Assembly: GCA_028821125.1 (NCBI GenBank)
Contig: JAPPHD010000067.1
Coordinates: forward strand, 1 to 43,427
DNA length: 43,427 nt
Direction of reading: 5' to 3'
Origin: Gammaproteobacteria bacterium
GTDB taxonomy: Bacteria > Pseudomonadota > Gammaproteobacteria > Pseudomonadales > Azotimanducaceae
How positions within the stretch are numbered: the first letter of the stretch is position 1; each line of letters begins with the position of its first letter. Below are positions 119-33,341 of this stretch, in pieces. The translations under genes were made by a program, and so were the position numbers. Under the pieces are notes generated by a model. The model saw only the letters and a program-made list of their open reading frames with translations. It was not told where the DNA came from and did no database searches.

Positions 119-345
119 ATGAAAGTTCCCAACCCGGCCCGCCGGGACGCTGACGCGCAAGGAACAGAAACTCGCTGGGAGAGAGTAGGTGTGCGGTGCG
201 GGTATCCGGCACCTTTAAAGCACCCCTGCGCCCTCGAATTCCACGACAACGCGTCCGCTTGGTGTGCCGGATACCCGTACCGCATACCTGCTCTCGGAGC
301 CGGATCGAATGAGCAGTTCAAAATCCGGCTAAAAAAAACATCCAT
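119..345. repeat. Dispersed stem-loop repeat, copy B
   Basis: This is the most complete copy. A leader module (about 119-168) contains the short palindrome CCCGGCCCGCCGGG. A 32-nt left arm follows at 181-212, then a 51-nt centre at 213-263, then a 32-nt right arm at 264-295 that is the reverse complement of the left arm with about 3 mismatches. An AT-rich tail leads into the next copy. Centre orientation here is called forward (it starts CTTTAAAGCACCCCTG). A second small inverted repeat, AGCCGGAT...ATCCGGCT, lies at 298-330. Confidence 0.85.
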
Positions 346-373
346 TTAAAACAATGAGTTAAAGATTTGTTCC

Positions 374-688
374 ATGCGAGTTCCCAACCCGGCGCGCCGG
401 GACGCTGACGTGCGAGGAACAGACGACCGCCGGGGGAGCGTAGGTGTGCGGTGAGGGTATCTGGCACGCCAAGCGGACGCGTTTTCGTGGAATTCGAGGG
501 CGCAGATTGTTCGACACCCGGCCCCGCAACCAGTTGCGGGGCGTCGCCACCTGCCGAAGCGGTGCTTCGGCTCGGGCTGCGCCCGACCGGTGGCGACCCC
601 GTACCGCACGCCTGCTCTCGGTGCCGAGTCACTGGTGTTATGTCAAATAGAATATCTTTTGAAATCAACGAGTTGAAAATTGCTCCAT
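374..688. repeat. Dispersed stem-loop repeat, copy C, centre inverted and expanded
   Basis: The leader module and the AT-rich tail have the same orientation as copy B. The centre beginning near 467 is instead the reverse complement of the copy B centre (GCCAAGCGGACGCG versus CGCGTCCGCTTGG). After it, extra sequence replaces the inner right arm and holds nested hairpins: GCCCCGCAA/TTGCGGGGC at about 521-542, GTCGCCACC (542-550) pairing with GGTGGCGAC (589-597), and CCGAAG/CTTCGG inside that. The outer right arm survives at about 597-616. Confidence 0.8.
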
Positions 689-695
689 GCGAGGA

Positions 696-2603
696 TTAGC
701 TCAACCGCAGCACCGGCGTCTTTGGTACCAGCCCGCCGAGCTGGGATTCAAGGTCGGAACCTTCGATCAGGCCCGCGGTAAACGCCTTGATGGCCTCGAA
801 GTCATAGCTGTCGCAGGCCTGTTCCAGGGTCTTGAGCGCCACCCGCAGCTCCGGCCAGGGCACGAAGCCTTCCTCCGCCCGCATGATGCGGCGGTGTTCG
901 GTACCGGTGACATCCTCGCCCACCAGCAGTTCCTCGTGCAGTTTCTCGCCGGGCCGGAGCCCGATGAACTGAACGTCGATATCGCCGTCGGGCTCGAATT
1001 CCGTCTTCAGGCGGTGCCCCTTGATGAGCGCCATGCGTGCGGCCAGGTCCATGATCTTGATGGGCTGCCCCATGTCCAGCAGGAAGACATCGCCGCCCCG
1101 GCCGAGGCTTGCCGCCTGCAGCACCAGTTGCGCTGCTTCCTGGATGGTCATGAAGTAACGGGTGACGTCCGGATGGGTCACGGTGACCGGCCCACCGTTC
1201 TCGATCTGTTCGAGGAAGAGCGGCACGACGGAGCCCGATGACCCCAGCACGTTGCCGAAGCGGACGATGGAAAAACAGGTATCCGGCGCGGTTTCCTGCA
1301 ACGCCTGCAGGATCATCTCCGCCAAGCGCTTGCTCGCGCCCATGGCGCTGGTGGTGCGCACCGCCTTGTCGGTGGAGATCAGTATGAAGTCCGTCACACC
1401 GGCGGCGAGCGCGCCTTCCGCCGTGCAAAGCGTGCCGAAGGCGTTGTTCTTGAGCCCCTGGATGACGTTGTTCTCGACGATGCCCACGTGCTTGTACGCC
1501 GCCGCGTGATAGAGCGTTCCGATCTCGTGGACCTCGATCGAGCGATGGATGAACGCCCGGTTGGTGACCGAGCCGAGCAGGCTGACGATGGGCACGTCGA
1601 GTTTCTCCTCGCCGCAGATCTGCTCGACTTCGCGCTGGATCTCGAATAGGCCGTATTCGGACTGATCGAGCAGCACCAGGCGCCCCGGCCCCTGGCGCAC
1701 GATCTGGCGGCAAAGCTCGGAGCCGATGGAGCCGCCGGCGCCGGTCACCATGACGTTGCGGCCTTCCACGGATTTCCGCAGCAGGTGAGGCAGCGGATCC
1801 ACCTCGCTGCGCCCGAGCAGGTCCCTGATTTCCACATCCGGCACCGCGGGCAAACCCTCGCCCTTGTCCAGCATCAGGTCGCCGATGTCCGGAATGAGGC
1901 GGATGCGCACGCCGAAAGGCTCCAGGAAATTCAGAATCCTGCGCCGGGCCGCCGCATTGGAAGCGCCGCCCACGGCCACGAGCACCTGCCGGGCGTTGGT
2001 TTCCCGCAGCAGCCGGGGCAGCGAGCGCGGCGAGTGGACCCGGAGGTTGTCAATCACCCGATGCTGCAGCGCCGCATCGTCGTCCACGAACGCCACCGGC
2101 CGATAGTCGCCCTGCCGCAGCAGCGACCGCACCAGCTCGACGCCCCGCTTGCCCGCCCCGTACACCACGACCGGCTCGCCCGGCTGCAGGCCCGCAGTAC
2201 GCCATTGGAACCAGCCGCGTATGACCAGGCGGCTGGCGACAATGCCGAACACGCCGATCAGCCAGAACATCATCGGCACCGAGCGCGGGAACCCGGCAAG
2301 CGGAACCATGTAGGCCACCACTGCGATCATGGCTGCCCCGATGGCCACGCCCTTGGCCACCGTCCACATGCCGCGGCCGCCCATGTAGCGCACTACCTGC
2401 CGGTAGAAACCCTGAACGGCCAGCGCCGGTATGCAGGTCAGTGCGGCAGCGAACGCCGGCCACAACCAGGCGATCTCCAGCGACCACTCGCCGAGGCGCA
2501 ACCCCAGCGCCGTCCACAGGGCCAGGGGCAGCACAACGGCATCGAAGAGCAGCGCGAGCCCCTGCTTGTGGCGCCGTGACAGTTTGCCGATGACGTTAAT
2601 CAC
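696..2603 (-). CDS. wbpM: WbpM/CapD-type UDP-sugar 4,6-dehydratase (membrane-anchored)
   Basis: Converts a UDP-N-acetylhexosamine to its 4-keto-6-deoxy form, the entry step to rare amino sugars of O-antigen or capsule, at the inner face of the cytoplasmic membrane. The 635-residue length is right for the long WbpM/CapD class. About four hydrophobic segments occupy residues 15-125. A first Rossmann-like domain (VVVYGAGKRG near 146-153) follows, then the catalytic SDR domain with GAGGSIG at 288-294. The catalytic Met-Lys motif TDKAV...MGASKR sits at about 411-426. The start overlaps the upstream wbpL-like stop in an ATGA, so the two are translationally coupled. It is the last gene of the cassette and ends next to the repeat block at the window start. 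The class is secure; the exact sugar substrate is not readable. Confidence 0.93.
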   Translation of the reverse strand: MINVIGKLSRRHKQGLALLFDAVVLPLALWTALGLRLGEWSLEIAWLWPAFAAALTCIPALAVQGFYRQVVRYMGGRGMWTVAKGVAIGAAMIAVVAYMVPLAGFPRSVPMMFWLIGVFGIVASRLVIRGWFQWRTAGLQPGEPVVVYGAGKRGVELVRSLLRQGDYRPVAFVDDDAALQHRVIDNLRVHSPRSLPRLLRETNARQVLVAVGGASNAAARRRILNFLEPFGVRIRLIPDIGDLMLDKGEGLPAVPDVEIRDLLGRSEVDPLPHLLRKSVEGRNVMVTGAGGSIGSELCRQIVRQGPGRLVLLDQSEYGLFEIQREVEQICGEEKLDVPIVSLLGSVTNRAFIHRSIEVHEIGTLYHAAAYKHVGIVENNVIQGLKNNAFGTLCTAEGALAAGVTDFILISTDKAVRTTSAMGASKRLAEMILQALQETAPDTCFSIVRFGNVLGSSGSVVPLFLEQIENGGPVTVTHPDVTRYFMTIQEAAQLVLQAASLGRGGDVFLLDMGQPIKIMDLAARMALIKGHRLKTEFEPDGDIDVQFIGLRPGEKLHEELLVGEDVTGTEHRRIMRAEEGFVPWPELRVALKTLEQACDSYDFEAIKAFTAGLIEGSDLESQLGGLVPKTPVLRLS

Positions 2604-3577
2604 TCAGGCAATCCCGCCCGAAGGCGCCGGGCGGCCACGGCCAGCGGAAGCAATGCAAGCACCTGGAATGCGACCCCGAGAATGAGCGAATCCCCAAAGG
2701 AGGCGGCCGCCACCGCAAGCGGCAGGAGCCACAGAACGCACAGTGCTGAAAAGCCGACCATCGTCCATGAAGTTCCGAACCTGGCCGCCACTTTCTGATA
2801 AAGATGGCTGCGGTGCGGTTCCGTGAATGGCTGCCGGGTCGCTATTCTGACACAGAGCGTGTAACTGGCGTCAAACCAGAACGCCGTCAGCAGAATCGTG
2901 CAGGCCAGAAGCGGCACGCCGTATTGCGCCACCAGTTGCACGACAAGAACGCCGATGAGAAGCCCGAGAAAGACACTGCCCGTATCCCCCATGAATATCC
3001 GGGCCGGCGGCCAGTTGTAGACGAGAAATCCGAGCATGGCACCCGCCGTCAGCCACAGCAGCGCACCCTCCCAGCCGGGCACACCCCCGGTGAGCAGGTG
3101 CGCGGCAAGACAGAAGAACAGCGTCTGGGTGCCCAGGATGCCGTCGATCCCGTCCATGAAATTGGAAAGATTGATGTGCCACAGCAGCAATGCCGCCGCG
3201 GGCGCGTATACCCACCAGGGCCAGCCCGGCTGGAGCGTCCAGAACACCAGCCCAACGGCCAGTAGCTGAACGGCCATGCGCACACCACGGCCGGTCTCCC
3301 GCAGGTCGTCCACCAGGCCCATGAGCGCCAGGCCCGCTCCGCCCGCCAGCAGCCCGTACAGCGCGGAAGTCGCCACGCTCTCCAGCCCCAGAAACACCAG
3401 CACCGGCAACACGAATCCCAAGCCCCCGACAGTCGGCGTCGCAACGGTGTGAAAGCTGCGGGCATTGGGCACCGCCAACAAGCCGCGCCGCCGGGCAAGC
3501 GTCACCATCAGCCCCACGAGCACCACCGTGGCGGCGAACCCGGCCCCCAGCAGAATCAACGCTTCCGACGAGTCCAT
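2600..3577 (-). CDS. wbpL: WbpL/WecA-family undecaprenyl-phosphate sugar-1-phosphate transferase
   Basis: Glycosyltransferase family 4 enzyme that transfers a sugar-1-phosphate from a UDP-sugar to undecaprenyl phosphate and so starts O-antigen unit assembly at the inner membrane. The 325-residue protein is almost entirely membrane helices. It carries the family motifs: LVDD at 88-91, NLSNFMDGIDG at about 136-146, a later FMGDTGS loop, and a cytoplasmic EPHRSHLYQK motif. I chose the start MDSSEAL at 3577 because the longer reading upstream gives a non-homologous Gly/Ala/Arg-rich leader lying inside the epimerase gene. It overlaps the epimerase end by 22 nt and wbpM by 4 nt. The order epimerase-wbpL-wbpM is that of Pseudomonas O-antigen loci, so the symbol is given by family and position; wecA-like is the cautious alternative. 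Confidence 0.9.
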   Translation of the reverse strand: MDSSEALILLGAGFAATVVLVGLMVTLARRRGLLAVPNARSFHTVATPTVGGLGFVLPVLVFLGLESVATSALYGLLAGGAGLALMGLVDDLRETGRGVRMAVQLLAVGLVFWTLQPGWPWWVYAPAAALLLWHINLSNFMDGIDGILGTQTLFFCLAAHLLTGGVPGWEGALLWLTAGAMLGFLVYNWPPARIFMGDTGSVFLGLLIGVLVVQLVAQYGVPLLACTILLTAFWFDASYTLCVRIATRQPFTEPHRSHLYQKVAARFGTSWTMVGFSALCVLWLLPLAVAAASFGDSLILGVAFQVLALLPLAVAARRLRAGLPE

Positions 3578-4485
3578 GCGACGGTCTCCTTGAGAAGCTC
3601 CTCCGACGGCCACGGCGGTTTCCAACCCACCCGGCGCGCCGACGCCTCCCCCTCCACCCGCAGCGGCTCGAACAGCCGGGTGACCAGGTCTCGCCCGCCC
3701 AGCCAACCGGCAATCGACCCGGCGAGCTTCCCGGACATGGGAAACTGCCGGCTCGAACGGCCGGAGAGCCGCTGCAACTCACCGGCCAGCTCGGTGACGC
3801 TCCATTCCTTCGCATCCCGTACATGCAGTATTTCCTTGCCATCAAGGTTTCCGGCAGGCACTCGCGCAAGGAAATCCACGAGATTGGCAAGGCCCACCAT
3901 CGACCGCAACGCCGTGGCGCCCGCCAGGGGCAGAGGCAGGCCCGTCCCGCACAACCGCATCAGGGCTGCAAAGTTGCCCCGTACCCCCGGCCCGTACACC
4001 AGCGGCGCCCGAACGATGGCAAGCGTCGTCGATTGGCGCCCCGCATCGAGCAACGCCCGTTCCGCGCTGGCCTTGCTCCGCGCATAGTCACTTGCCGGCG
4101 CTTGGGCGGCATCCGGTCGCAGCGGCGCTTCCGAAACTTCGCCAAGGACCTTGATCGTGCTCAACCACACGAACGCCCGCACGCCGGCCGCGCAGGCCGC
4201 GTTGAACAGGCGCAGCGTCAACTGCCGGTTGACGGCATCGAAATCCGCAGCGGTCGCATGCCTTGACCCCTCGTGCAACCCAGCCAGGTGGTAGACGGCA
4301 TCGGCACCGGCCAGCGCCCGCGCCAGTTCGGCCCGCGAACGCCTCGACAGATCGCCGATGCCGGTAGCCGCCGCACCCCGATTCGCCGGCAACACTTCCT
4401 GGTCGAGTTCCTTCAGGCGCCGCACAAGAGCCCCGCCGATGAACCCCGAAGCGCCCGTAACGCATACAACCGTCACGGGCAGCAC
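3556..4485 (-). CDS. NAD-dependent sugar epimerase/dehydratase (WbpV-like)
   Basis: Extended SDR protein of 309 residues, probably acting on a nucleotide sugar for surface polysaccharide. The NAD-binding motif TGASGFIG lies at 10-17, and the catalytic tyrosine and lysine are YARSK at 134-138. A conserved VYHLAG strand near 64-69 and a VYGPG motif follow in the usual order. Position directly upstream of wbpL-wbpM fits WbpV (a UDP-GlcNAc C4-epimerase-like enzyme) of Pseudomonas O6-type clusters. Substrate cannot be read from sequence, so no symbol is assigned. It is the first gene of the cassette; immediately upstream is a 369-base stretch with repeats rather than more O-antigen genes. Confidence 0.88.
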   Translation of the reverse strand: MLPVTVVCVTGASGFIGGALVRRLKELDQEVLPANRGAAATGIGDLSRRSRAELARALAGADAVYHLAGLHEGSRHATAADFDAVNRQLTLRLFNAACAAGVRAFVWLSTIKVLGEVSEAPLRPDAAQAPASDYARSKASAERALLDAGRQSTTLAIVRAPLVYGPGVRGNFAALMRLCGTGLPLPLAGATALRSMVGLANLVDFLARVPAGNLDGKEILHVRDAKEWSVTELAGELQRLSGRSSRQFPMSGKLAGSIAGWLGGRDLVTRLFEPLRVEGEASARRVGWKPPWPSEELLKETVAWTRRKR

Positions 4486-4623
4486 ACCCTTTGTTCAATG
4501 GCCGCTTCCATCGAGCGGCATCATTTCTTACCGGCACAGAAGGGGTCAAGCCTCCGCCAAGCGCACAGCCGGCGGTTTTCACCTCCGCGGCAAACGCGCT
4601 GACGCGGAGCGTAGCGGGCACTT

Positions 4624-4833
4624 CCATGAAAGTTCCCAACCCGGCGCGCCGGGACGCTGACGCGTAAGGAACAACGCCGAATTACGGGGAAGAGTTTGCA
4701 TGCGGGGCTTCCCTTTCGGCGCGTTAAGCTCATCCGAAAACCTTGCGTACTGCTGAGTGCCTGCGTACAACAGAAAAAGGGGCCGTGCGCCGAAAGGGAA
4801 GCGCCGTATGCGAACTCGCTGTTGCGAATGACG
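4624..4833. repeat. Leader module of the dispersed repeat joined to a different long inverted repeat
   Basis: Bases 4624-4671 match the leader module of copies B and C nearly exactly. What follows is not their stem-loop but another one. A 31-nt left arm at 4693-4723 pairs with 4786-4816 (4 mismatches) around a 62-nt centre. The architecture is the same (leader, ~31-nt arms, ~50-60-nt centre) but the arm sequence is unrelated (core CTTCCCTTTCGGCGC). This element fills most of the gene-free stretch 4486-4854; I see no gene in that stretch. Confidence 0.8.
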
Positions 4834-4854
4834 ATATGTAGCCCGCAATCTTTT

Positions 4855-5094
4855 CTACGCTCGCTCGTATGCCCGCAGAAACTCGGCCCGGCTTACTCCC
4901 GACTGATTGCAGATCGCGCGCAACGTCGATGACTTCAGACGCGCGTGGTTGGGCATCGTCAACGGGGTGACGCTGCCATCGTCGTTACTTCTCCGCAGGG
5001 CGATGTGGCTGCCCTCGCGCACCACCTCGAAACCAAGCTCACCCAGGGCGCGAACGACCTTGCGCCGAGGCGCGTCCCTCGGGAACCGCGCCAC
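4855..5094 (-). CDS. hicA: HicA-family mRNA interferase toxin
   Basis: A 79-residue basic protein with the double-stranded-RNA-binding-like fold expected of HicA toxins, which cleave mRNA and are neutralised by HicB. The family signature is visible: an N-terminal helix (KVVRALGELGFEVVR), then EGSHIALRR with the catalytic histidine at residue 30, then the TPLTMPNHARLKSSTLRAI strand-helix segment. Length is typical (60-85). It lies 3 nt downstream of hicB, so the order is antitoxin-toxin and the pair is one transcript. The gene ends close to a stem-loop repeat. Confidence 0.85.
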   Translation of the reverse strand: MARFPRDAPRRKVVRALGELGFEVVREGSHIALRRSNDDGSVTPLTMPNHARLKSSTLRAICNQSGVSRAEFLRAYERA

Positions 5095-5097
5095 GGC

Positions 5098-5328
5098 CTA
5101 GCCGGCCATGCTCGCCTCGGCGACGAACGCCTCGACGACGGGAGAGTCTTCGTCCAACAGCGCCTCGGCGCCGAACGTCTCTACATGGAACGCGATCGCC
5201 GAGCGCACATCGTCGAGTGCCGCCTGATACGTATCGCCCTGCCCGACCACCACGCCCTTCACGCCCAACGGATAGGCAACATAACCGTCGGGGTGCTTTT
5301 CCACGATCAACTTGATCTGAGTTTCCAT
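5098..5328 (-). CDS. hicB: HicB-like antitoxin (short form)
   Basis: A 76-residue protein with the HicB partial RNase H-like fold: KLIVEKHPDGYVAYPLGVKGVVVGQGDTYQAALDDVRSAI-type pattern (strand, strand, GD-x-x-x-A-L-x-D helix). It should bind and inhibit the HicA encoded 3 nt downstream. It ends about residue 76 with no obvious C-terminal ribbon-helix-helix or HTH domain, so it may not repress its own promoter as longer HicB proteins do. The start ATG is preceded by AAGGA with a 7-nt spacer. Confidence 0.82.
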   Translation of the reverse strand: METQIKLIVEKHPDGYVAYPLGVKGVVVGQGDTYQAALDDVRSAIAFHVETFGAEALLDEDSPVVEAFVAEASMAG

Positions 5329-5487
5329 ACGTCATTCCTTGGCCAGGTTCGCTTTCGCCTGACCTCCGTCCGACAAACCTAGCGCACGGTTTCTTCGATT
5401 TCCACCGGGATTTGCGGGTTGGCACAACCTGTTCCTGAATGAACGTAGCAGGGCCGGCAAGAGTAGTGAAAGAAACTATTGTGAGTG

Positions 5488-5573
5488 TGTCGCTGACGCG
5501 CACGAAACAGATCGCGCTGGGAGAGATTAGATGTGCGGCAAGCCCGCCCTCAAGCGCGAGCCTGCCGCACTCG
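5488..5573. repeat. Degenerate copy of the dispersed repeat leader/left arm, with a hairpin
   Basis: The stretch GCTGACGCGCACGAAACAG followed by GGGAGAGATTAGATGTGCGG parallels the leader end and arm start of copy B but is clearly diverged. A short inverted repeat, GTGCGGCA at 5533-5540 and TGCCGCAC at 5563-5570, takes the place of the long arms. It lies about 18 nt past the stop of comEA (minus strand), so it may also act as a transcript end or stabiliser, but there is no T-run. Confidence 0.5.
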
Positions 5574-5587
5574 TTTGTGCCGCTGCG

Positions 5588-5911
5588 TCAATCGACCGCG
5601 ATACGGTCGGAATTGACGGCGACCGTCCGGGCGCCGATGCCCTTGACGTCCGCCAGTTCGCCCGCATTCCGGAACGGGCCGTTGGCCTCCCGGTACTGCA
5701 CGATGGCCTGGGCGCGCTTGAGGCCGATGCCGTTGAGCCCTGCCGCGATGGCAGCCGCATCGTCGGTGTTGATGTTGACCTTCAATGCGTCCGCCGACAG
5801 GTCGCCGGAAGCCGTTTCGCTCGCTTCCGGTTCGTCCGCCGGAGCCGCGAGCGCCGCCGGTGCCGGCAGCAGCATGACCGCTACGGCCACGATGGTGAGA
5901 AATCGATGCAT
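5588..5911 (-). CDS. comEA: ComEA-family helix-hairpin-helix protein (exported)
   Basis: A 107-residue protein with a cleavable signal peptide (hydrophobic 5-22, cleavage near ALAA-P). An acidic Ala/Glu linker follows, then the C-terminal ComEA DNA-binding fold at about 43-107: VNINTDDAAAIAAGLNGIG, AQAIVQYREANGPF and ADVKGIG, i.e. two helix-hairpin-helix motifs. In competent gammaproteobacteria this periplasmic type binds incoming DNA and helps pull it across the outer membrane. In Pseudomonas a similar gene lies beside wbpM; here it is separated from wbpM by the cassette, a repeat and hicBA. No other competence gene is in view, so a role in uptake is inferred from the family. Confidence 0.88.
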   Translation of the reverse strand: MHRFLTIVAVAVMLLPAPAALAAPADEPEASETASGDLSADALKVNINTDDAAAIAAGLNGIGLKRAQAIVQYREANGPFRNAGELADVKGIGARTVAVNSDRIAVD

Positions 5912-6047
5912 GGGGGAAACCTCCTCAGTTGTTTCTGGCTGGAGTCAGGAAGGCTATCGAGGCGGCACCCCGTTGAATGCGAGCAAGCGCTGTATCTGGC
6001 GTAATCCGGAAACGCTTTGCGTTGTGCGCGTTCTCTCGCCCGCGCCG

Positions 6048-6350
6048 TCAGGGAGCAGGGTCGGCGGGCGAGTGCTCCCGCAAACGCTCTATCTCCTCGC
6101 CGGCGGCGCGCAGTTCCTTCCTGAGCCGGCGATTGCGCATCGAGCGTCTCGCGGTCACGCCCGCAGCCGACGCCAGACCCAACAGCAACCCCAGCAACAG
6201 AGCGATCAGCAGCCACCAGAAAACGCTGAGTTCCGGGGTCTGCCAGGCGAGAAACCGCAGCGAGATCCGGTCCTGGTTCACGGCCACCACGGCGACCAGA
6301 AACAGCACGAGCGCAAGGAGCAGGGCCAGTGCGCGCCGCAACCAGGTCAC
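6048..6350 (-). CDS. lapA: LapA-domain inner-membrane protein (DUF1049)
   Basis: A small (about 100 residues) protein with two membrane helices, the second rich in Leu/Gly. Between them is the typical NQDRISLRFLAWQTPELSVFW segment pattern, and after them a basic, coiled-coil-prone tail (RRSMRNRRLRKELRAAGEEIERL). This is the LapA (YciS) layout; LapA with LapB controls LpxC turnover and lipopolysaccharide assembly. I prefer the GTG start at 6350 (reading V-T-W-L-R-R-A-L), which gives the usual LapA length. A TTG start at 6368 would add six residues. No lapB is adjacent here. Confidence 0.8.
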   Translation of the reverse strand: MTWLRRALALLLALVLFLVAVVAVNQDRISLRFLAWQTPELSVFWWLLIALLLGLLLGLASAAGVTARRSMRNRRLRKELRAAGEEIERLREHSPADPAP

Positions 6351-6462
6351 GGGCGGCCCATCCCGCAAATGGCACCAACGGCCGTGACGCTGCCGCCGGG
6401 ATTCGTACTTCCGCGCGCTCTTGAGGAGCTCTCAGCCGGAGAGGGCGAGGAGATACCCCGCT

Positions 6463-7221
6463 TCATTCGCCGTGCAGCTCTTCGCGTACCGTCTCCGGCG
6501 AACGGCCGGCGGTGGGCAGGTGCACGACCTCCGCCAGGCGCTTGCCGGGCTCTTCGGTATCCCCCTCCACCCCAAGCGCCTCCGGGCCTGTCTGCCGATC
6601 GTCCGGCGCCACGCTTGCCCCGGCCTGGCTTTCCGTTCGCTCTTCGCCGTCTTCCTCCGCCACCAGCGGCTCGATCATCGACCGGATCTCGGCCAACGGC
6701 GGCAATTCGTCGAGCTTCTTCAGATTGAAATAGTCGAGAAAGGCCCGGGTGGTGCCGTACAGGTTCGGGCGGCCCGGCGTTTCCCGCTGGCCGACAACCC
6801 GCACCCAGCCACGCTCCAGCAGCGTACGCACGATGTTCTGGCTGACGGAAACCCCGCGCACCTGTTCGATGTCGCCGCGGGTCACCGGCTGTTTGTAGGC
6901 GATCAGCGCCAGCGTCTCCAGAAGCGCCCGCGAGTAACGGGGCGGCTTCTCTTCCCACAGCCTGCCGATCCATTCGCTCAGTTCGCCGCGCACCTGAAAG
7001 CGAAACCCGGAGGCCACCCGCTTGAGTTCGTACCCGCGGCCGGCGGCTTCCTCGCCGAGTTCGCGCAACGCGTCACGTATCTGTTGCCTGCCTTCCGCCG
7101 GATCCAGTTCACCCCGCTTGAACAGCTTCACCAGCCGGTCGACCGAGAGCGGCTCGTCCGCGGCCATGAGCGCGCCTTCGACAATCTGCTTGAGCTTGGC
7201 GGTGTCGACCCCGGCCAGCAT
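6463..7221 (-). CDS. scpB: Segregation and condensation protein ScpB
   Basis: Partner of ScpA in the SMC-ScpAB condensin complex that compacts and segregates the chromosome. The 252-residue protein has the two winged-helix domains expected: an N-terminal LKQIVEGALMAADEPLSVDRL helix set and a second domain with ALIAYKQPVTRGDIEQVRG, then RGWVRVVGQRETPGRPNLYGTT, the family signature. An acidic, low-complexity C-terminal extension (about residues 190-252) is longer than usual. Its ATG shares one base with the scpA stop (TGATG), so the two are translationally coupled. Confidence 0.94.
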   Translation of the reverse strand: MLAGVDTAKLKQIVEGALMAADEPLSVDRLVKLFKRGELDPAEGRQQIRDALRELGEEAAGRGYELKRVASGFRFQVRGELSEWIGRLWEEKPPRYSRALLETLALIAYKQPVTRGDIEQVRGVSVSQNIVRTLLERGWVRVVGQRETPGRPNLYGTTRAFLDYFNLKKLDELPPLAEIRSMIEPLVAEEDGEERTESQAGASVAPDDRQTGPEALGVEGDTEEPGKRLAEVVHLPTAGRSPETVREELHGE

Positions 7222-9121: not shown

Positions 9122-9212
9122 GTTTCACCGATCTTCATCGACAGCGTTCGAGACGCCGTCCGGCAGGATGGCACGGAACGGGACTCGGCGTTCTCCTGGA
9201 ACGACGCGCGGC

Positions 9213-9218
9213 ATTATA
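9213..9218 (-). promoter_or_regulatory. Candidate -10 element for the trpS-scpA-scpB operon
   Basis: On the minus strand this reads TATAAT, a perfect sigma-70 -10 hexamer, about 90 nt upstream of the trpS start in the 148-nt gap after the PII-like gene. No convincing -35 is seen at 16-18 nt, so an activator or a weak -35 would be needed. Confidence 0.4.
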
Positions 9219-9269
9219 CGGATTTCAGGGGTTTGGAGTTGTTTCAGCCCGTTGTTGCTTCCCTTCGGC

Positions 9270-9602
9270 CTATTCCCCGATTGCGGCCATCTGGGTAGTC
9301 AGCCCCACCGCATCCTCGACGTCGATGACAAAGGCGATTCCCGCGCCCGGCTCCCCGTCGAACCGCCCCGCTTCGCGAATACGTTCGAGGATGTCATCGG
9401 CCCGGGCCGCTGCCACCAGGAACAGAACGACGTCCCGTTTGGAGGCGAGTTCCAGCCCCAGGAAGGTCTTTTTCGGTGAGCGGCCCTCGCCGCGCACGCT
9501 GGTGATCACCGTGGCGCCGGTGGCGCCGGCGGCGCGCGCCGCATCGATGACGGTATCGGTCTTCTGGTCGTCCACCAGGCTGACGATGAGTTTCAGATTC
9601 AT
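9270..9602 (-). CDS. PII-like signalling protein linked to DUF1538 membrane proteins
   Basis: A 110-residue protein with the ferredoxin-like PII fold. It starts MNLKLIVSLVDDQKTDTVIDAARAAGA-like, then has a GATVITSVRGEG strand-turn, a T-loop region (SPKKTFLGLELASKRDV) and the closing DDILERIREAGRF...GIAFVIDVED part. It differs from GlnB/GlnK: the uridylylated tyrosine context of the T-loop is not present. It starts 3 nt after the second DUF1538 gene, so it is almost certainly made with those membrane proteins. By analogy with GlnK-AmtB it may bind and gate them; that is inference. Confidence 0.85.
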   Translation of the reverse strand: MNLKLIVSLVDDQKTDTVIDAARAAGATGATVITSVRGEGRSPKKTFLGLELASKRDVVLFLVAAARADDILERIREAGRFDGEPGAGIAFVIDVEDAVGLTTQMAAIGE

Positions 9603-9605
9603 GGA

Positions 9606-23055: not shown

Positions 23056-23154
23056 GATTCAGCCCCGGTCGGCCCCTGTCTCTGCTCGCAAGCGGTTGCC
23101 GCTCCCGCGTTGCAACTATACGCCCATCAGGCGTTGTACACCCCCAACTGGAGC

Positions 23155-23991: not shown

Positions 23992-24025
23992 GATCCGTCC
24001 TTGCTGATCGGTCAATTCGGGCGCG

Positions 24026-25027: not shown

Positions 25028-25085
25028 GGTCGTTCTCCCTATCTCGTTGGCGTCGATTCCGCAATCCGGTCGCTGTCTCAACCTC

Positions 25086-26123: not shown

Positions 26124-26218
26124 GTTCACCCCTGATCAACGTGGAAAAAACGCGCCGCAAAATAGCAATCGCGGGCACGACACACAACACGGGGCATAAC
26201 ATGCGGCGGTTTTGGAGG

Positions 26219-26262
26219 CTAGTTGGATAGGAATTGACTAGTTTCGAACTCCCGTCTATCCT
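26219..26262 (+). promoter_or_regulatory. Strong sigma-70-like promoter with overlapping inverted repeat, near-leaderless
   Basis: TTGACT at 26234-26239, a spacer of exactly 17 nt, and TATCCT at 26257-26262 make a good sigma-70 promoter. Expected transcript starts (about 26268-26270) are only a few bases before the ATG at 26272, which has no ribosome-binding sequence, so the mRNA may be leaderless. The inverted repeat CTAGT (26219-26223)/ACTAG (26237-26241) overlaps the -35 and is a candidate operator for the HTH-containing second protein. Confidence 0.6.
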
Positions 26263-26271
26263 GTGCCGTTC

Positions 26272-26511
26272 ATGGAAGTTCGGTATCGATCCCACGCTGT
26301 TGAGCGAATGATTCAGCGCGGAATTGCACCGCATGACGTTGAGGACATACTCGGGAACCCGGACGAAGTAATCAGGCAATCCATGGACAAGGTCATTGTG
26401 TACAAGCACATCGAAGGCCGAATCGACAATTCAATTGCCGTGGTGGCTGTCGAGGGAATTCAGGCATGGGAAGTGATCACCGTAATGGTCAACTTCGAGG
26501 CACGGGAATGA
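26272..26511 (+). CDS. DUF4258 protein, candidate toxin
   Basis: A 79-residue protein with the DUF4258 pattern: SHAVERMIQRGIAPHDVEDILGNPD, then a strand KVIVYKHIEG, then AVVAVEGIQAWEVITVMVNF. These short proteins resemble RelE/BrnT-like small toxins in layout and usually neighbour DUF2283 proteins. The start ATG at 26272 is chosen over the GTG at 26263 because the promoter -10 ends at 26262. It overlaps the next gene by 4 nt (ATGA), so the two are coupled. Toxin activity is inferred, not shown. Confidence 0.72.
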   Translation: MEVRYRSHAVERMIQRGIAPHDVEDILGNPDEVIRQSMDKVIVYKHIEGRIDNSIAVVAVEGIQAWEVITVMVNFEARE

Positions 26512-26831
26512 AAATCCATCACGACACCGCACGGGACTGGCTGACTATCGACTTTGCCGAGGAAATAGAAGCCCGATCCGTCTACAACGACGGCATTATC
26601 GTACGTTACGACAAGGCGGGACACGTGATCGGTATCGACATCACCGATTCCATGAAGGTGTTCGGCGGTTCCGACTTCATGACATTGCGAGAGGTTTGCA
26701 GTTTTCTCGGTGTATCCGAATCAACGGTCCGCCGAAAAATCCGGGCGAACAGGATCAAGCACTCCATGGAAGGCAATCGTTACCGCTTCAGAAAATCGGA
26801 CATCCTCAGCCTCGTGGAGGCACGACGATGA
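26508..26831 (+). CDS. DUF2283 protein fused to a helix-turn-helix (excisionase/MerR-type), candidate antitoxin
   Basis: A 107-residue two-domain protein. Residues 1-52 match DUF2283: KIHHDTARDWLTIDF, a YNDGIIVRYDKAGHVIGIDITDSMK strand set. Residues 57-107 are a DNA-binding HTH of the excisionase/MerR type: FMTLREVCSFLGVSESTVRRKIRANRI followed by the wing MEGNRYRFRKSDI. The fusion gives the antitoxin-like partner its own DNA-binding module, consistent with autoregulation at the inverted repeat over its promoter. Overlaps the DUF4258 gene by ATGA. Confidence 0.75.
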   Translation: MKIHHDTARDWLTIDFAEEIEARSVYNDGIIVRYDKAGHVIGIDITDSMKVFGGSDFMTLREVCSFLGVSESTVRRKIRANRIKHSMEGNRYRFRKSDILSLVEARR

Positions 26832-26879
26832 GTCCTCTACCTCCGAACGGGTCCCGGCCAGGCGCTTGACAGCGGCCCC

Positions 26880-28232
26880 ATGAGCGACGTGCCGAAACAC
26901 CCCGGCAACCGCATTCCCGAACGGCCTGCTCCCCGGAGGTCGCCTGGCGGGGGAACGCAAGACGGGAACCCGCCTCAGTCCACGGCGTCGAGCCAGGACG
27001 TGCGGCAGGACGAACAGTTGGAATCGAAGACGCCCGACCGGACCGGCACCCCCGGCGTACAACTGCAGCTCAGCCCGCTCTCCATCCAGGCGGCGGCCCT
27101 GGTGAAGTGCATCGACGGGCTGTCGAACATATTCTGGATATCCTTCGCGGGCACCTTCCTGTCGATCTTTTTCGCAAGCCTCAACCAGCTCGATGCGAAC
27201 GCCGCCTCCGACCACATCTTTCTCGGCGAATACCAGGTTCCCAAATCCATCCTGCCACTGGCGGCGGTCGCCTTCGCCCTATTCGTCTTCTGGCTGACCG
27301 CGAACCGGCTGAAGGTTCTCAACCACGCGCTGCACACGACGGTACTGCCCGCCGAGGCGGTGCACGAGATATTCCGGCTCAATCCACCGGTGCTGCACGT
27401 CTTTCAGATCGAGAACCTGAAACGCTGGTCGCCGGCATCGGGCGTCAACGTCTTCCTCATCAACTGGGCCGTCTTCTTCGGCAACAGCATGGCGCTCACC
27501 TGGTCTTCAGCGCTGCAGCGGGGCGCCTATTCGGGTCAGTTCAGCCCGACGCTCCTTGCTGCCTACCTGCTGCTGATCGTCGCCGTCATCGCCTACGGCA
27601 GCCGCTCGATCATCCCGGCGATGCGCACCATCCTGGGCGCCCTGCACGATGTCGACTTCCGGCTCGGCTGGCAGCGATACGTCACTGCCGTCATGCTTGC
27701 CGCCGCGGTATTCGTCATCGGTCAGTGGGACCAGGTGCAGTCGCCCGGGCCTCAGGACGGCGACCTGCTCGGCCCGGCGATCGCCAATGCCATCGACGGG
27801 GAAACGCTGTTCATGGGCGGCACCGAGGTCAAGCTCTTCGGCATCGACTCGGTCGAAGGCGACCAGGTCTGCCAGGACGCGAACGGCGCCGACTACGCCT
27901 GCGGGCGCCGCGCCACCCAGGCTCTCCAGTCTCTCGTGCAGCGGGACCTCGTGGTCTGCCTGCCGCTCTTCGCCATCGGCGATTCCAGGGTAGTGGGACA
28001 CTGCGAAGTGGTGGAGGATGGCGGGTTCGAGCCGGTCTCCCCCATCGAGTTCATGGAGGAATTCCGCCCGAACAACCTCTCGCGCCTGATGGTGGCCGAC
28101 GGGCACGCGGTTGCCATCGGCCTCGGCACCCGCTTCTTCGGCGCCGAGCAGGACGAGGCCCAGGCGCTCAGGCAAGGCATCTGGCAAGGGTCCTTTCAGC
28201 CGCCCAGCAACTGGCGGCGGCAGTCTGATTAA
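26880..28232 (+). CDS. Polytopic membrane protein with C-terminal SNase-like domain
   Basis: A 450-residue protein. Residues 1-65 are Pro/Gly/Gln-rich and disordered. About five membrane helices follow (83-103, 124-143, 188-207, 222-240, 268-283). Then a staphylococcal-nuclease-like domain covers 299-446: AIDGETLFMGGTEVKLFGIDSVEGDQVCQ, YACGRRATQALQSLV, and the closing QGIWQGSFQPPSNWRR. The usual catalytic residues look altered: the first Arg position reads K-L-F, the PE motif reads VE, and the DxYGR motif reads DSRVVG. So a binding or inactive nuclease fold is as likely as an enzyme. It lies 48 nt after the DUF2283-HTH gene on the same strand. Confidence 0.78.
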   Translation: MSDVPKHPGNRIPERPAPRRSPGGGTQDGNPPQSTASSQDVRQDEQLESKTPDRTGTPGVQLQLSPLSIQAAALVKCIDGLSNIFWISFAGTFLSIFFASLNQLDANAASDHIFLGEYQVPKSILPLAAVAFALFVFWLTANRLKVLNHALHTTVLPAEAVHEIFRLNPPVLHVFQIENLKRWSPASGVNVFLINWAVFFGNSMALTWSSALQRGAYSGQFSPTLLAAYLLLIVAVIAYGSRSIIPAMRTILGALHDVDFRLGWQRYVTAVMLAAAVFVIGQWDQVQSPGPQDGDLLGPAIANAIDGETLFMGGTEVKLFGIDSVEGDQVCQDANGADYACGRRATQALQSLVQRDLVVCLPLFAIGDSRVVGHCEVVEDGGFEPVSPIEFMEEFRPNNLSRLMVADGHAVAIGLGTRFFGAEQDEAQALRQGIWQGSFQPPSNWRRQSD

Positions 28233-28299
28233 CGCCGTTCACTACCCGGGCCCGCCTGCAAACCTGGGGAGCCGGAGGTGCCGATTCAGGAAGAGGGGG

Positions 28300-29007
28300 C
28301 TACGATTCCGCCCCGCCGCGTTCCAGCCCGATCAGGTAGTCCACGGTTTTCAGCGCCTGGCGCCGGCCCGCATCCATGGTGACGGCGTAGCGGCCGGCCA
28401 CCACCACGGTGGGCGTGACGGCGATCTGGAAGCGCCGCGACAGGGCGTTCCGCTCGGCCTGCCTGCGGCGCACCGGGGCTGAGTTGAAGGCATCCAGGAA
28501 GGCTCCGCGCTCCACCCCGCGGCCGGCCACGAAATCGGCGATGTCGTCCACCGACAGGAATTGCCGGCCGTTGTCGTGTATGGCCCGGAAAAAACGCTCG
28601 TGGTTGGCTTCCAGCCCGCCGGCCGCCTCGAGCGCGAAATAGGCCTGCGCCAGCAGCGCCCAGGCGGCATTGAACGACACCGGCGCGCGCTCGAAACGTA
28701 CATCGTCCGGCAGGCCGCGCTGCCAGGCGGCAACGAGCGGCTCGAAGTTCTTGCAGTGGATGCAGCCGTAGGAAAAGAACTCGGTAACGACGATGGGAGC
28801 TCCCGGCCGCCGGCGCAGCGGATCGTCGATCACCCGATAGTGCTCGCCTTCGACAATGTCGCCCGACTCCGTGGCGCCGCTGCTGTACAGGAGGCCGTAC
28901 CCGGCCACGACGGCCGCCAGCACGACGGCGAACCCGATGATGCCGTTGCGCAGCCGGTTGACCTTGCGCGCCTGGGCGGCGCGCTTTCGTTTCTGTGTTG
29001 TCTGCAT
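28300..29007 (-). CDS. DsbA-like thioredoxin-fold oxidoreductase, membrane-anchored
   Basis: A 235-residue protein with a basic N-terminus, one membrane helix (about 23-41) and a periplasmic thioredoxin-like domain. The active site is SYGCIHCKNFEP with Cys82-Ile-His-Cys85, and the cis-proline motif is VTPTVVV. The intervening helical insert (residues 110-175) fits DsbA rather than plain thioredoxin. It probably introduces or shuffles disulfides in exported proteins. The start ATG at 29007 is chosen over the upstream reading, which lacks similarity and adds a Gly/Arg leader. It is convergent with the SNase-like gene, separated by 67 nt. Confidence 0.86.
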   Translation of the reverse strand: MQTTQKRKRAAQARKVNRLRNGIIGFAVVLAAVVAGYGLLYSSGATESGDIVEGEHYRVIDDPLRRRPGAPIVVTEFFSYGCIHCKNFEPLVAAWQRGLPDDVRFERAPVSFNAAWALLAQAYFALEAAGGLEANHERFFRAIHDNGRQFLSVDDIADFVAGRGVERGAFLDAFNSAPVRRRQAERNALSRRFQIAVTPTVVVAGRYAVTMDAGRRQALKTVDYLIGLERGGAES

Positions 29008-29106
29008 GCCTCTGTGTCCCTTCCCGATCGACCGTGCCGGCCCAGCCCGCTCGGCACGGCCATAGGTGGTACCCGAAAACCATATCACCGACCCTAACCG
29101 GGCGCA

Positions 29107-30342
29107 TTACCGGGCGAGCAACTCCGCCCAGTGCAATACGGGCACGCGCGCGCCGGCGGCGAGGTGAGTCTGGCATCCGACGTTGGCGGTGACGATGACA
29201 TCGGGTTCTTCCGCCATCAGGTTGGCGAGCTTGTTGTCCTTGAGACGGCTCGAAAGCCGGGGTTGCAGCAGCGAATAGGTTCCCGCGGAACCGCAACAGA
29301 GATGGGCATCGCGCACATCGACGAGTTCGAATCCGGCCCGGGCGAGCAGTTTCTCGACGATGCCGGAAACGCGCTGGCCGTGGCGCAGCGTGCATGGCGG
29401 ATGCCAGGCCACCTTCCCGAACGCGCCGTCGTCGCGGCTCGCAAGCTCGGTGAACGGCGCCGCCACCTCGGCGAGATCCCGGGTCATGCCGGCGATACGC
29501 GCCGCATCCGCCGCGTATTCAGGATCTTCCGCCAGCAGGCGCCCGTAGTCCTTCACAGTGACCCCGCAGCCGCTCGCGGTGGAAACGATGACGTCCACGC
29601 CGTCGAGCAGCGGCCGCATTGCGTCGATGTTCCTGCGCATGTACTCGAGCGCCGCCCCGGTCTGGCCGAGATGCAGGTTCAGCCCGCCGCAGCAGCCCTC
29701 GTCTTCCACCCGGCGCACTTCGATGCCGTTGGCGTTCAACAGCCGCTCCGCCGCGGCATTCGCCGCCGGGGTCGCCACCCTTTGTACACAACCCCTCAAT
29801 ATGAGCGCTCGGCGGGAAGACCGGAACTTGCCAGCGGGTAACGGCGCCGGGCGCGCCCGTCCCCGCTGCCGACGGGGCAGCGCCTTTTTCAGCATCCCGG
29901 GCAGCAACCACCTGAACCATTGCCCCAGGCTGGCCCAGCGCGCGAATACCTCCGGCTTCGGCACTATCCAGCCAAGCCATTTCCGCGCCGCCGCATCCCA
30001 GGGCGCGCGTCGGGTCCTTTCCTCCATCGCCTCGCGGCCGATTTCCAGCAGTTCCCCGTACTGCACCCCGGACGGACAGGCCACCTCGCAACCACGGCAG
30101 GTAAGGCACCGGTCGAGGTGAGTCTGCACCGTACGCACGCTACCGGCATCCGCTTCCGGCGCCTCGAGGAGTCCCTTGATCAGGTAGATGCGCCCGCGCG
30201 GACCGTCCAGTTCATCGCCCAGCAACTGATAGGTCGGGCACACCGCATTGCACATGCCGCAGTGCACGCAGGAGCGCAGGATCTCGTTTGCCCGCCGCCC
30301 CTGGGCGGTGGCCAGCAGGTTCTCAGGAAGCCCCGTCTGCAT
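29107..30342 (-). CDS. glcF: Glycolate oxidase iron-sulfur subunit
   Basis: Electron-transfer subunit of membrane-associated glycolate dehydrogenase (GlcDEF), which oxidises glycolate to glyoxylate. The 411-residue protein has two 4Fe-4S ferredoxin motifs at the N-terminus: CVHCGMCNAVCP (Cys25, 28, 31, 35) and CLTCRGCEVACP (about 79-89). Two CCG-type heterodisulfide-reductase-like domains follow, with GCCGGLN and CCGSAGTYSLL. It overlaps glcE by 20 nt, so the two are co-transcribed. Confidence 0.94.
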   Translation of the reverse strand: MQTGLPENLLATAQGRRANEILRSCVHCGMCNAVCPTYQLLGDELDGPRGRIYLIKGLLEAPEADAGSVRTVQTHLDRCLTCRGCEVACPSGVQYGELLEIGREAMEERTRRAPWDAAARKWLGWIVPKPEVFARWASLGQWFRWLLPGMLKKALPRRQRGRARPAPLPAGKFRSSRRALILRGCVQRVATPAANAAAERLLNANGIEVRRVEDEGCCGGLNLHLGQTGAALEYMRRNIDAMRPLLDGVDVIVSTASGCGVTVKDYGRLLAEDPEYAADAARIAGMTRDLAEVAAPFTELASRDDGAFGKVAWHPPCTLRHGQRVSGIVEKLLARAGFELVDVRDAHLCCGSAGTYSLLQPRLSSRLKDNKLANLMAEEPDVIVTANVGCQTHLAAGARVPVLHWAELLAR

Positions 30343-31387
30343 CGACGATTCCCGGATTGAGTACGTTGTCTGGGTCGAACGCCCGCTTCAGGCGGGCCGA
30401 GACCGCGCCGTCGAGCACGGGTCCCGCGTAGGCCGGCAGCGCCCGGGCATCGATGCCGGCCGCATAGGCCTGCACCTCGCCCCCGGGCCGATGCGTCGCC
30501 CACCAGCGCCGGGCGCCGGCCCACTCGACCACGCATTCCTCGCCGTCGCCAACGTCGCCGCCTGTATCCGCCGGCGGTAGCGGCGCGGCCGGCGGGCAGG
30601 CGATTTCCCAGAGCGTCCGCCCCGGCCGCCGTTCGAAACAGGGCAGCGCCCGGTCGCGAAGTTCTTTCCAGAGCGCATCGCCGCCGCGTTCTCCCCCAAG
30701 GCTCGCGGCCGCCGTCCGCACGGGAGAATCGGCACCGGAGATGCGCACGTTCAGACGCCCGGCGAAATGGCAGGTTGCCGTCACCGGCAGGGAAGACCGC
30801 GACCAGCCACGCACGAGTTTTTGAGCCTCTTCCCCGGTACACCGCAGAACCCGCGTTTCCTCCACTTCAGGCAGCGGCAGCAGGCGCAGGCTCACCGACA
30901 GCAGCACGCCCAGGGTGCCGCAGGCGCCGGCCTGCAACCTGGAAAGGTCGTATCCGGCGACGTTTTTCATGACCTGCCCGCCGAACACCAGGCGCTCGCC
31001 CAGGCCGTTGAGCATTTCCACGCCCAGCACCGCGTCGCGCACGGAACCTCGCCACGGGCGGCCCGGCCCGGCGAGACCCGCGGCCACGGCGCCGCCGACG
31101 GTGCCGCCGCCGCCCACGCGTGGCGGCTCGAACGGCAGGTATTGGCCGTGTTCCGCGAGCAGTTCGACCAGATCCGCCAGCGGCGTGCCCGCGCGGACGG
31201 TTACCACCAGTTCCTCGGGACGATACTCGATGACTCCGGAATGCCCGGTAACCGCCAGCAACTCCCCCTCCGCGTTCGCCAGGCACCAACTCTTGCTGCG
31301 GGAACCGAAGACGGCCAGCTTGACCTGCCGCGCCCGGGCATCCCTGATCCTTTCGGTCAATTCAGCGGTTCTGTCGCTCTCAGCCAC
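30323..31387 (-). CDS. glcE: Glycolate oxidase FAD-binding subunit GlcE
   Basis: A 354-residue FAD-linked (PCMH-type) subunit of glycolate dehydrogenase. VIEYRPEELVVTVRAGTPLADLVELLAEHGQYLPFEPPR and GGTVGGAVAAGLAGPGRPWRGSVRDAVLGVEMLNG are the FAD-binding motifs, and MKNVAGYDLSRLQAGACGTLGVLLSVSLRL follows. The C-terminal tail DPDNVLNPG is typical. Separated from glcD by a dispersed repeat (328-nt gap) instead of being directly adjacent. Confidence 0.93.
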   Translation of the reverse strand: MAESDRTAELTERIRDARARQVKLAVFGSRSKSWCLANAEGELLAVTGHSGVIEYRPEELVVTVRAGTPLADLVELLAEHGQYLPFEPPRVGGGGTVGGAVAAGLAGPGRPWRGSVRDAVLGVEMLNGLGERLVFGGQVMKNVAGYDLSRLQAGACGTLGVLLSVSLRLLPLPEVEETRVLRCTGEEAQKLVRGWSRSSLPVTATCHFAGRLNVRISGADSPVRTAAASLGGERGGDALWKELRDRALPCFERRPGRTLWEIACPPAAPLPPADTGGDVGDGEECVVEWAGARRWWATHRPGGEVQAYAAGIDARALPAYAGPVLDGAVSARLKRAFDPDNVLNPGIVDADGAS

Positions 31388-31469
31388 TTGGCACTACCCT
31401 ACCGGGCGGCCGTCTTCCCCTCGCCACGCTCCCAGCCGTGCTGGCCCCGGCATCTGCCGCGCTAACGCG

Positions 31470-31697
31470 CCGGAAACACCCGCCGTTAGCAGAGAGAGAG
31501 TGGGTGTGCGGTGCGGGCATCCGGCACCTTTAAGGCACCCCTGCACCCTCGAACTCTCCAGCAGCGCGTCCGCCTGGTGTGCCGGATGCCCGTACCGCAT
31601 ACCCGCTCTCGGTGCCCGATCAAAGGAATTGTTTGGACCGTCAATTCCCAAAAAAATAAATCTTTTCAAATCAATGGCTTGATATTTTTTTCATGAA
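31470..31697. repeat. Dispersed stem-loop repeat, copy D (between glcE and glcD)
   Basis: Left arm 31496-31527, 51-nt centre 31528-31578, right arm 31579-31610, then an AT-rich tail to about 31697. Arm sequence and centre orientation match copy B. A weak leader-like sequence, GCTAACGCGCCGGAAAC, replaces the full leader module. The element fills most of the gene-free stretch between glcE and glcD (31388-31715); no gene is seen there. Confidence 0.83.
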
Positions 31698-31715
31698 ACA
31701 CCTGACTGCCACGTC

Positions 31716-33170
31716 TCAGAGCCGCTCCAGGCCGGCAAACGGCAGTTTCCCTTCGTGTACGTGCATGCCCCCGAGTTCGACACAGCGGGCGGGCCTCGGG
31801 ATGCCCTTGCCCGGATTGAGCAGCCGGGCCGGGTCGAAGGCGTCTTTTACCCGTTCGAACTGGGCCAGTTCTTCGGGGCCGAACTGAGCGCACATCTGGT
31901 CGAGTTTCTCGACGCCCACGCCATGCTCCCCGGTAACGGTACCGCCCGCGGCGACGCACAACTCGAGGATCCTGCCGCCGAGCCGCTCGGCACGCTCAAG
32001 CTCACCCTCCCGGTTGGCATCGAACAGAATGAGTGGATGCAGGTTGCCGTCGCCGGCGTGAAAGACGTTGGCCACCGCCAGCCCGTATTCCCGGGACAAA
32101 TCCGAAATGCCCGTGAGCACATCCGCCAGCGCCCGCCGCGGAATCGTGCCGTCCATGCAGTAGTAGTCGGGCGAGAGCCGCCCCATGGCCGGAAACGCCG
32201 CCTTGCGGCCAGACCACAGGCGCGCCTGCCGTTCCGGGTCCCGGGCACGCTGGATGTCGTAAGCTCCGTTGCCTTCGAGCACCGGTTCGACGGCAGCTTC
32301 GAGCGCATCGAGTTCAACCTCGGCGCCATCGAGTTCGCACAGCAGGATGGCCGCCGCGTCCCGGGGATAGCCGGCCTGCGCAAAATCCTCGGTCGCCTGA
32401 ATGGCCAGCTCGTCCATCATCTCCAGACCGGCCGGCACGATGCCCTGCCTGATGATGTCGGTGACCGCCTGCCCCGCCTCGGCAAGGCTCCTGAACGCCG
32501 CCAGCAGCACCAGTTTTCCCGGCGGGTTGGGCAGCAGCCGCACCGTGATTTCCGTGACCACCCCCAGCAATCCCTCGCTGCCGCACATCAGCGCCATCAG
32601 GTCGTAGCCCGGGTAGTCGAATCCCTTGCCGCCCAGGTTCAGCGTCTGCCCGTCCATGGTCAGCACGCGCAGGCCCACCACGTTGTTCACGGTGAGTCCG
32701 TATTTCAGGCAATGCACGCCGCCGGAGTTCTCGGCCACATTGCCGCCGATGCTGCAGGCGAGCTGGGAGGAAGGATCCGGGGCGTAGTAGAGGCCATGGG
32801 GCGCCGCCGCCTCGCTGACGGCCAGGTTGCGCACCCCCGGCTGCACCCGGGCGACGCAGTTCTCGAGATCGACCTCGAGGATGCGGTTCAGCTTGGAGAG
32901 CCCGAGCACCAGCCCGTCCCGCACCGGCCGCGCGCCGCCGGACAGCCCGGTTCCCGCACCCCGCGGCACCACGGGCACCTCGTGCTCCCTGCAGATGGCG
33001 AGCACTTCCCTTACCTGCTCTTCGGTTTCCGGCAGCGCCACCGCCCATGGAATCTCCCGGATTGCCGTCAGCGCATCCGTCTCATAGGGCTTGAGCGCCG
33101 CTCCCTCGGTGATCAGGCAACCGGACGGCAGCGTCTTGCGCAATCGCTTGAGGACTGCGGGATGATTCAT
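31716..33170 (-). CDS. glcD: Glycolate oxidase subunit GlcD (FAD-linked)
   Basis: The catalytic FAD subunit of glycolate dehydrogenase, 484 residues. The PCMH FAD-binding domain has VPVVPRGAGTGLSGGARP and GLYYAPDPSSQLACSIGGNVAENSGGVHCLKYG, the family signature. The substrate domain has VFHAGDGNLHPLILFD and VTGEHGVGVEKL. C-terminal DPARLLNPGKGIP is normal. On the same strand and upstream of glcE and glcF, though a repeat copy separates it from glcE. Confidence 0.95.
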   Translation of the reverse strand: MNHPAVLKRLRKTLPSGCLITEGAALKPYETDALTAIREIPWAVALPETEEQVREVLAICREHEVPVVPRGAGTGLSGGARPVRDGLVLGLSKLNRILEVDLENCVARVQPGVRNLAVSEAAAPHGLYYAPDPSSQLACSIGGNVAENSGGVHCLKYGLTVNNVVGLRVLTMDGQTLNLGGKGFDYPGYDLMALMCGSEGLLGVVTEITVRLLPNPPGKLVLLAAFRSLAEAGQAVTDIIRQGIVPAGLEMMDELAIQATEDFAQAGYPRDAAAILLCELDGAEVELDALEAAVEPVLEGNGAYDIQRARDPERQARLWSGRKAAFPAMGRLSPDYYCMDGTIPRRALADVLTGISDLSREYGLAVANVFHAGDGNLHPLILFDANREGELERAERLGGRILELCVAAGGTVTGEHGVGVEKLDQMCAQFGPEELAQFERVKDAFDPARLLNPGKGIPRPARCVELGGMHVHEGKLPFAGLERL

Positions 33171-33226
33171 CGCTCAAGTATGACACCGGGGGTGGGCCGG
33201 TGCCATTGGGCTGAACATTCGACTCC

Positions 33227-33341
33227 GAGAGTGGGCGTGCGGTGCGTGCATCCGGCACGCCAAGCGGACGCGTTGTCGTGGAATTCAAGGGCGCAGGGGT
33301 GCTCTAAAGGTGCCGGATGCACGCACCGCACACCCACTCTC
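33227..33341. repeat. Dispersed stem-loop repeat, copy E, centre inverted
   Basis: Left arm 33227-33258 and right arm 33310-33341 pair at 31 of 32 positions, the best of all copies. The 51-nt centre (33259-33309) is the reverse complement of the copy B centre with about 3 differences. No leader or AT-rich tail is obvious here, so this copy is just the stem-loop. It sits between glcD and the glyoxalase gene. Confidence 0.85.

Follow-up and report, generated by a model that had tools for sequence, protein, structure and literature searches.

Reversed cores in a composite stem-loop repeat of a gammaproteobacterial genome: probable template switching between hairpin arms

In a 43,427-nt stretch of gammaproteobacterial DNA (contig JAPPHD010000067.1, the whole of which is called the window here), the centre of a dispersed repeat reads one way in some copies and the opposite way in others. 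This raises the question of whether the centre has turned round between constant flanks and, if so, whether an active invertible element or a passive process turned it. The flips that do occur are most likely passive copying accidents at a hairpin as opposed to the work of a genetic switch.

Architecture of the element and its copies

The repeat is a composite, non-coding stem-loop element, dispersed through the genome and built, from leader to tail, of a leader, a stem-loop core and an AT-rich tail. Its leader-to-tail strand folds into a hairpin of considerable length, which a short stem predicted between leader and tail probably closes. The leader is about 62 nt long and contains a GC-rich hairpin, while the tail frequently terminates in TTCCATG. 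With a 186-nt query, the best other copy is matched at E 1e-72, which excludes chance resemblance. The original prediction placed 32-nt arms around a 51-nt centre in copies B, D and E, and the exact coordinates were recovered: 181-212 and 264-295 in B and 31496-31527 and 31579-31610 in D (91% complementary in each), and 33227-33258 and 33310-33341 in E (97%). The centre reads in the same direction in B and D and in the opposite direction in E, as had been claimed.

The window starts with a tandem run of three copies. Copy A (1-118, plus strand), which is truncated where the contig begins, retains the end of an 89-nt module (1-26), the tail-side arm (30-51) and the AT-rich tail. Copy B, on the same strand, has a leader with the GC-rich hairpin and a GGAACA motif (119-180), a core in the usual orientation (181-295, centre 213-263), and a tail (296-376) that ends in TTGTTCCATG and is predicted, in a fold of 119-374, to pair with the leader GGAACA. 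Copy C has a plus-strand leader (377-435, probe match 379-423) of the same sense as that of B and a plus-strand tail (620-690) of the same sense as that of A, with a minus-strand core (436-619) that is inverted relative to both. This core is 184 nt long versus 115 nt and is made up of a leader-side arm (436-467), a reversed piece of the centre (469-505) that matches centre positions 14-50 in reverse complement at 97%, the 89-nt module (506-594), which replaces the remainder of the centre, and a tail-side arm (598-619).

Copies D and E are single copies between genes. D lies on the plus strand between two FAD-binding oxidase genes, with a worn leader (31434-31495; scores of 15 as leader and 5 as reversed tail) followed by a core (31496-31610) and tail (31611-31694) in the usual orientation; visual inspection of the orthologous junction of eight congeners showed no element there. 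E lies between one of these oxidase genes and a glyoxalase-family gene, and consists of a minus-strand core (33227-33341) with a leader vestige, cgcaggga (33342-33349). The window also holds a second core family on the plus strand (4626-4817), in which the leader is the same (4626-4673) but the long stem-loop behind it is another one, with arms at 4692-4722 and 4787-4817; a core of another family follows this leader at C116:18636 as well. In this second family (window 4626-4817, L113 and L114), GTTAAGCTC follows the arm and by eye resembles TTAAGGCTC, the start of the centre in congeners. Two other kinds of repeat were observed in the window: a tandem repeat of eleven overlapping copies with 33-nt spacing (38156-38683) and two 300-nt copies that are 598 nt apart and 81% alike (36788-37087 and 37386-37685).

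The source genome (G000; 5.28 Mb) is fragmented, with 193 contigs at 97.3% completeness. At least 82 copies of the element were located in fetched stretches of it through the element's right half. Cores of 114-116 nt account for 44 of these, with 12 of 184 nt, 5 of 197-208 nt and one cut at 100 nt; the remaining 20 have a left end that is truncated or could not be located. In the 184-nt form, the 89-nt module (window 506-594) substitutes for part of the left arm and centre. The module has nested hairpins and is present in cores with different centres (among loci L163-L184), and it could be a small mobile unit in its own right.

Orientation of cores against their flanks

To orient each copy, its flanks were scored by comparison with panels of leaders and tails, read both forwards and as reverse complements, at a threshold of 11, the shuffled 99% levels being 10 for tails and 9 for leaders. 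Core orientation is usual in 72 of the 82 copies, flipped in 4 and undecided in 6; where both flanks are decisive (49 copies), 46 are usual and 3 flipped. Flanks and core thus do not always covary across the genome. The two-sided flips are C41:436 (copy C of the window), C129:5632 and C190:37708, and C50:66, a copy cut by the contig end, is flipped by its leader side only.

In copy C, the tail, taken relative to the core, scores 37.5 in the reversed sense (shuffled 99% level 10). The earlier claim that its centre had flipped against constant flanks stands as to the sense of leader and tail; what turned, however, is a 184-nt core with only part of the 51-nt centre, and not a simple 51-nt centre. 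Copy C is a flip in place. E had been offered as a further example, and here the claim fails: its flank scores fall under the threshold (leader 9.0, tail 7.5), placing it among the six undecided copies, and by eye cgcaggga before the core and ggagtcgaa after it have the usual sense. E has the appearance of a complete, ordinary element lying on the opposite strand. Every two-sided flip belongs to the 184-nt form: 3 of its 12 copies are flipped, versus none of the 42 copies of 115 nt whose orientation was decided (Fisher P 0.009; with C129 and C190 counted as a single event, 0.04).

Arm matching and the origin of the flips

The arms bear directly on how the cores were turned. Across 49 copies with both 32-nt arms, the mean number of differences between the arms of one copy is 2.92, versus 4.92 with right arms permuted among copies, and 0.82 versus 2.28 at arm positions 12-32; the observed mean of 2.92 lies below all of 2000 permutations (lowest 4.31), a comparison that overstates independence, as the copies are related and kinship is uncontrolled. 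Two positions nevertheless mark which side an arm is on. In these 49 copies, position 6 is T in 37 leader-side arms and C in 38 tail-side arms, while position 11 is G in 47 leader-side and A in 44 tail-side arms. The nine unflipped 184-nt copies are similar (leader-side T6 in 7/9 and G11 in 9/9, tail-side C6 and A11 in 9/9), and the mutual match of their arms ends at about position 22. All three two-sided flips keep T6 and G11 on the leader side, as does C50, and C6 on the tail side, where A11 is kept in two of three (copy C of the window has G). Because flank-typical bases are kept and the arms match to about position 22, the exchange would lie within positions ~12-22 in C129 and C190 and ~7-22 in C. 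To judge from these bases, the exchange stretch would span some 11 nt at C129 and at C190, and some 16 nt in C, unless selection restored the bases later.

Matching of arms within a copy, together with reversal of the spacer in place, favours template switching between the hairpin arms, which we consider the most likely cause of the flips and hold to with reasonable confidence. A hairpin would form during replication, and the polymerase would jump from one arm to the other and then return. A short switch would copy one arm onto the other and preserve the pairing of the stem, while one that ran through the loop would write the loop as its reverse complement. The flips would then be rare by-products of the process that matches the arms, and a switch function would be unnecessary. 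Template switching between short inverted repeats has been described as producing both arm homogenization and spacer inversion, with spacer inversions reported, in the account given there, only where arms exceed 9 bp (PMC8604942), and loop inversions in RNA genes have been presented with bacterial examples included (PMC8794818). The footprints described in these two papers resemble the present case in their matched arms and in a spacer reversed in place, here at least twice. The difference lies in scale: the ten spacer inversions set out in PMC8604942 alter 2 to 5 bases, whereas the stretch turned round in this dispersed repeat is ~140 nt long and lies between arms of 22 nt. What speaks against template switching is that the two-sided flips are all found in the 184-nt form and in none of the decided 115-nt copies. 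The arms of the latter are longer and their loop is shorter, so that arm length alone predicts the opposite preference. As an alternative, selection for a paired stem could keep the arms matched and restore flank-typical bases after a flip.

Template switching and its four rivals do not strictly exclude each other. The best placed of these, although unlikely, is homologous recombination or gene conversion of the RecA type, which would flip the core by exchange from arm to arm in one copy or between copies of opposite orientation. Near-identical copies are present on both strands of G000, and C163:8070 resembles a hybrid, with one type of arm on the leader side (GAGAGTCGGTGTAC) and another on the tail side (GAGAGCAGGTATGC), so copies do seem to recombine. 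However, the arm homology available to the flips is ~11-16 nt. RecA in Escherichia coli works well from about 25 nt of homology, and the shorter stretches here count against it.

It is very unlikely that the core is a mobile cassette inserted into leader-tail scaffolds in either orientation. Such a cassette would suit the core matches in G002, G003 and G006 that come without matches to the G000 leader or tail, the second core family behind the same leader (window 4626 and C116:18636), and the occurrence of the 89-nt module apart from the core at a few places (L176 and L179, by eye). Insertion of a whole core, however, would not leave the flank-typical outer-arm bases with the flanks, where they are found. 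That an active invertible element is at work, with a site-specific recombinase flipping the core and thereby altering transcription or RNA function, is scarcely probable. Flips do occur at separate loci, and a multi-copy tyrosine integrase (Pfam Phage_integrase) lies beside repeat leaders; against this, orientation is biased 72 to 4, the ends of the integrase element contact the leader and not the arms, and the arm sequence varies while pairing is kept, unlike a fixed recombinase site. Of the two origins originally considered for the flips, the active one is therefore disfavoured by lopsided orientation (72 versus 4 of 82) and short exchange stretches, and the passive one gains from within-copy arm matching and from outer-arm bases that stay with their flank. 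The recombination-like exchange between arms foreseen at the outset accounts for core reversal in copy C, at the two loci inside contigs and in the contig-end copy. A use for the product is highly improbable: the loop RNA of a flipped copy, being antisense to the usual loops, would pair with them loop to loop, a few flipped copies would in this way regulate or silence the dozens of others, and the 184-nt form would flip more since it is useful.

The least probable rival is an assembly artefact in which repeats were misjoined, for despite the 193 contigs, 19 of 82 copies at or near contig ends, the position of copy C 436 nt into its contig and the truncation of C50:66 at a contig end, the flips at C129 and C190 lie inside contigs, the C129 gene neighbourhood recurs in 5/6 congeners and each flipped core has its own substitutions. 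At C129, the flipped element of G000 occupies the gap between a glyoxalase-family gene and a P450 gene. These genes are adjacent, with 35-76 nt between protein matches, in five of the six congeners with a close P450; in the sixth (L223, a 3016-nt stretch) the glyoxalase-family gene is unmatched. Since its flanking genes are neighbours in five congeners, the C129 flip is no chimaera, and that concern about the flips is allayed as far as this locus goes; at C190, one flanking gene alone is matched in relatives. In the inner part of the alignment of 184-nt cores, copy C differs from the unflipped C98 by 2 nt and from C181, likewise unflipped, by 3 nt, and C190 differs by 4 nt from each of C117 and C179, while the cores nearest to C129, among them C190, are at 6 nt. 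One base is common to C129 and C190 and absent from the other ten 184-nt copies. On a cautious reading of these sequences, the flips would represent at least two events.

Folding strand, relatives and known families

The arms also distinguish the strands. In the 49 copies, 109 arm mismatches are G-U on the leader-to-tail strand, 9 are G-U on the other strand and 25 are neither; 105 of the 109 fall at positions 6, 10, 11 and 18, and hence at few independent sites. RNAalifold predicts 40 pairs from 30 copies, 7 of which are kept through changes on both sides, and the fold of copy B, with its predicted leader-tail closing stem, has a z of -8.4 on the leader-to-tail strand and -5.4 on the other. 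This fits strand-biased folding as RNA or single-stranded DNA. With one mismatch permitted and as counts without a chance control, GGAACN is present in 51/55 leaders, and leader GGAACN together with a tail GTTCC or TTTTCC in 32/55. Of the 62 copies in which both arms were located, 52 had flanks long enough for gene strand to be scored: leader-side genes run with the element in 23, against it in 9 and are unclear in 20, and tail-side genes in 22, 19 and 11, respectively. The codon score used was validated on its own training genes alone (12/12), and no conclusion is drawn from it.

The core is matched in three of eight congeners (G002, G003 and G006), with no leader or tail match at their fetched core loci (13 stretches viewed); one G006 copy has the 89-nt module at 94.5% identity. 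Among 293 genomes of the order, a covariance model matched a single one, which was G000, but as scoring covered only 12 candidates in each genome and no other congener is among the genomes listed, this says little on spread. A pattern scan of named genomes gave two stretches, one of them in the MAG contig VYDB01000006.1 (SB0675_bin_3); the other, from Komagataeibacter, is by eye not the element. Within G000, the end of a multi-copy tyrosine-integrase element adjoins the leader hairpin in 6 of 14 loci compared, on either half of the hairpin, as if the leader were its target site (L244 in C117, L247 in C110, L251 in C13, L252 in C92, L255 in C73 and L257 in C159). By eye, an integrase end also lies beside the leader in L249, which contains a full integrase (Pfam Phage_integrase and Arm-DNA-bind_3), and none does in L250.

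Several known systems are similar in part. REPINs, as presented in PMC3116915, are inverted REP doublets that likewise form extragenic hairpins of ~100 nt in tens of copies, some in tandem; this element differs in its conserved centre, leader, tail and longer arms, and in having no RAYT match in the assembly. The hairpin is shared with REPINs, and extragenic position was seen for D, E and C129 only. No PF01797 (Y1_Tnp) match was found in G000, a fragmented assembly of 97.3% completeness, and in relatives the surroundings of the Y1_Tnp genes gave no match to an element module at E values of up to 0.1; G005 has two Y1_Tnp matches yet no core match. G002, G003 and G006 each have a single Y1_Tnp gene of 201-202 aa (L141, L142 and L143), in a similar place by eye. 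The enterobacterial RU sequences, small and MITE-like, are also short intergenic non-coding repeats of 100-170 bp, a likeness in general description (PMC2759123). Where a MITE would have one short target duplication at its two ends, CATGMRAG-like words by eye occur at both ends of copies here and are often unlike within one copy. To our knowledge, RU sequences offer no instance of this composite build or of core flips. A retron-like ncRNA was considered and rejected: G000 has six RVT_1 matches with no element module in those six loci, and of the congeners with the core, G002 and G006 gave no match to RVT_1 at E 1e-5. No known RNA family is matched at its gathering threshold within the window; mir-B6 (on both strands) and P37, the sole matches for 1-700 at E up to 1, fall far below their cut-offs. 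While the proposed mechanism is already known, the repeat family has no description in the literature searched, as judged mainly from listings.

Ultimately, the family is a natural record of hairpin upkeep and occasional inversion, in which the flanks fix the frame in dozens of copies and arm homogenization and loop inversion can both be counted within one genome. It is a test case for template switching, with a reversed stretch far longer than those of the yeast cases described in PMC8604942. One strand is moreover marked as the folding strand, which gives a lead to a function as RNA or single-stranded DNA.
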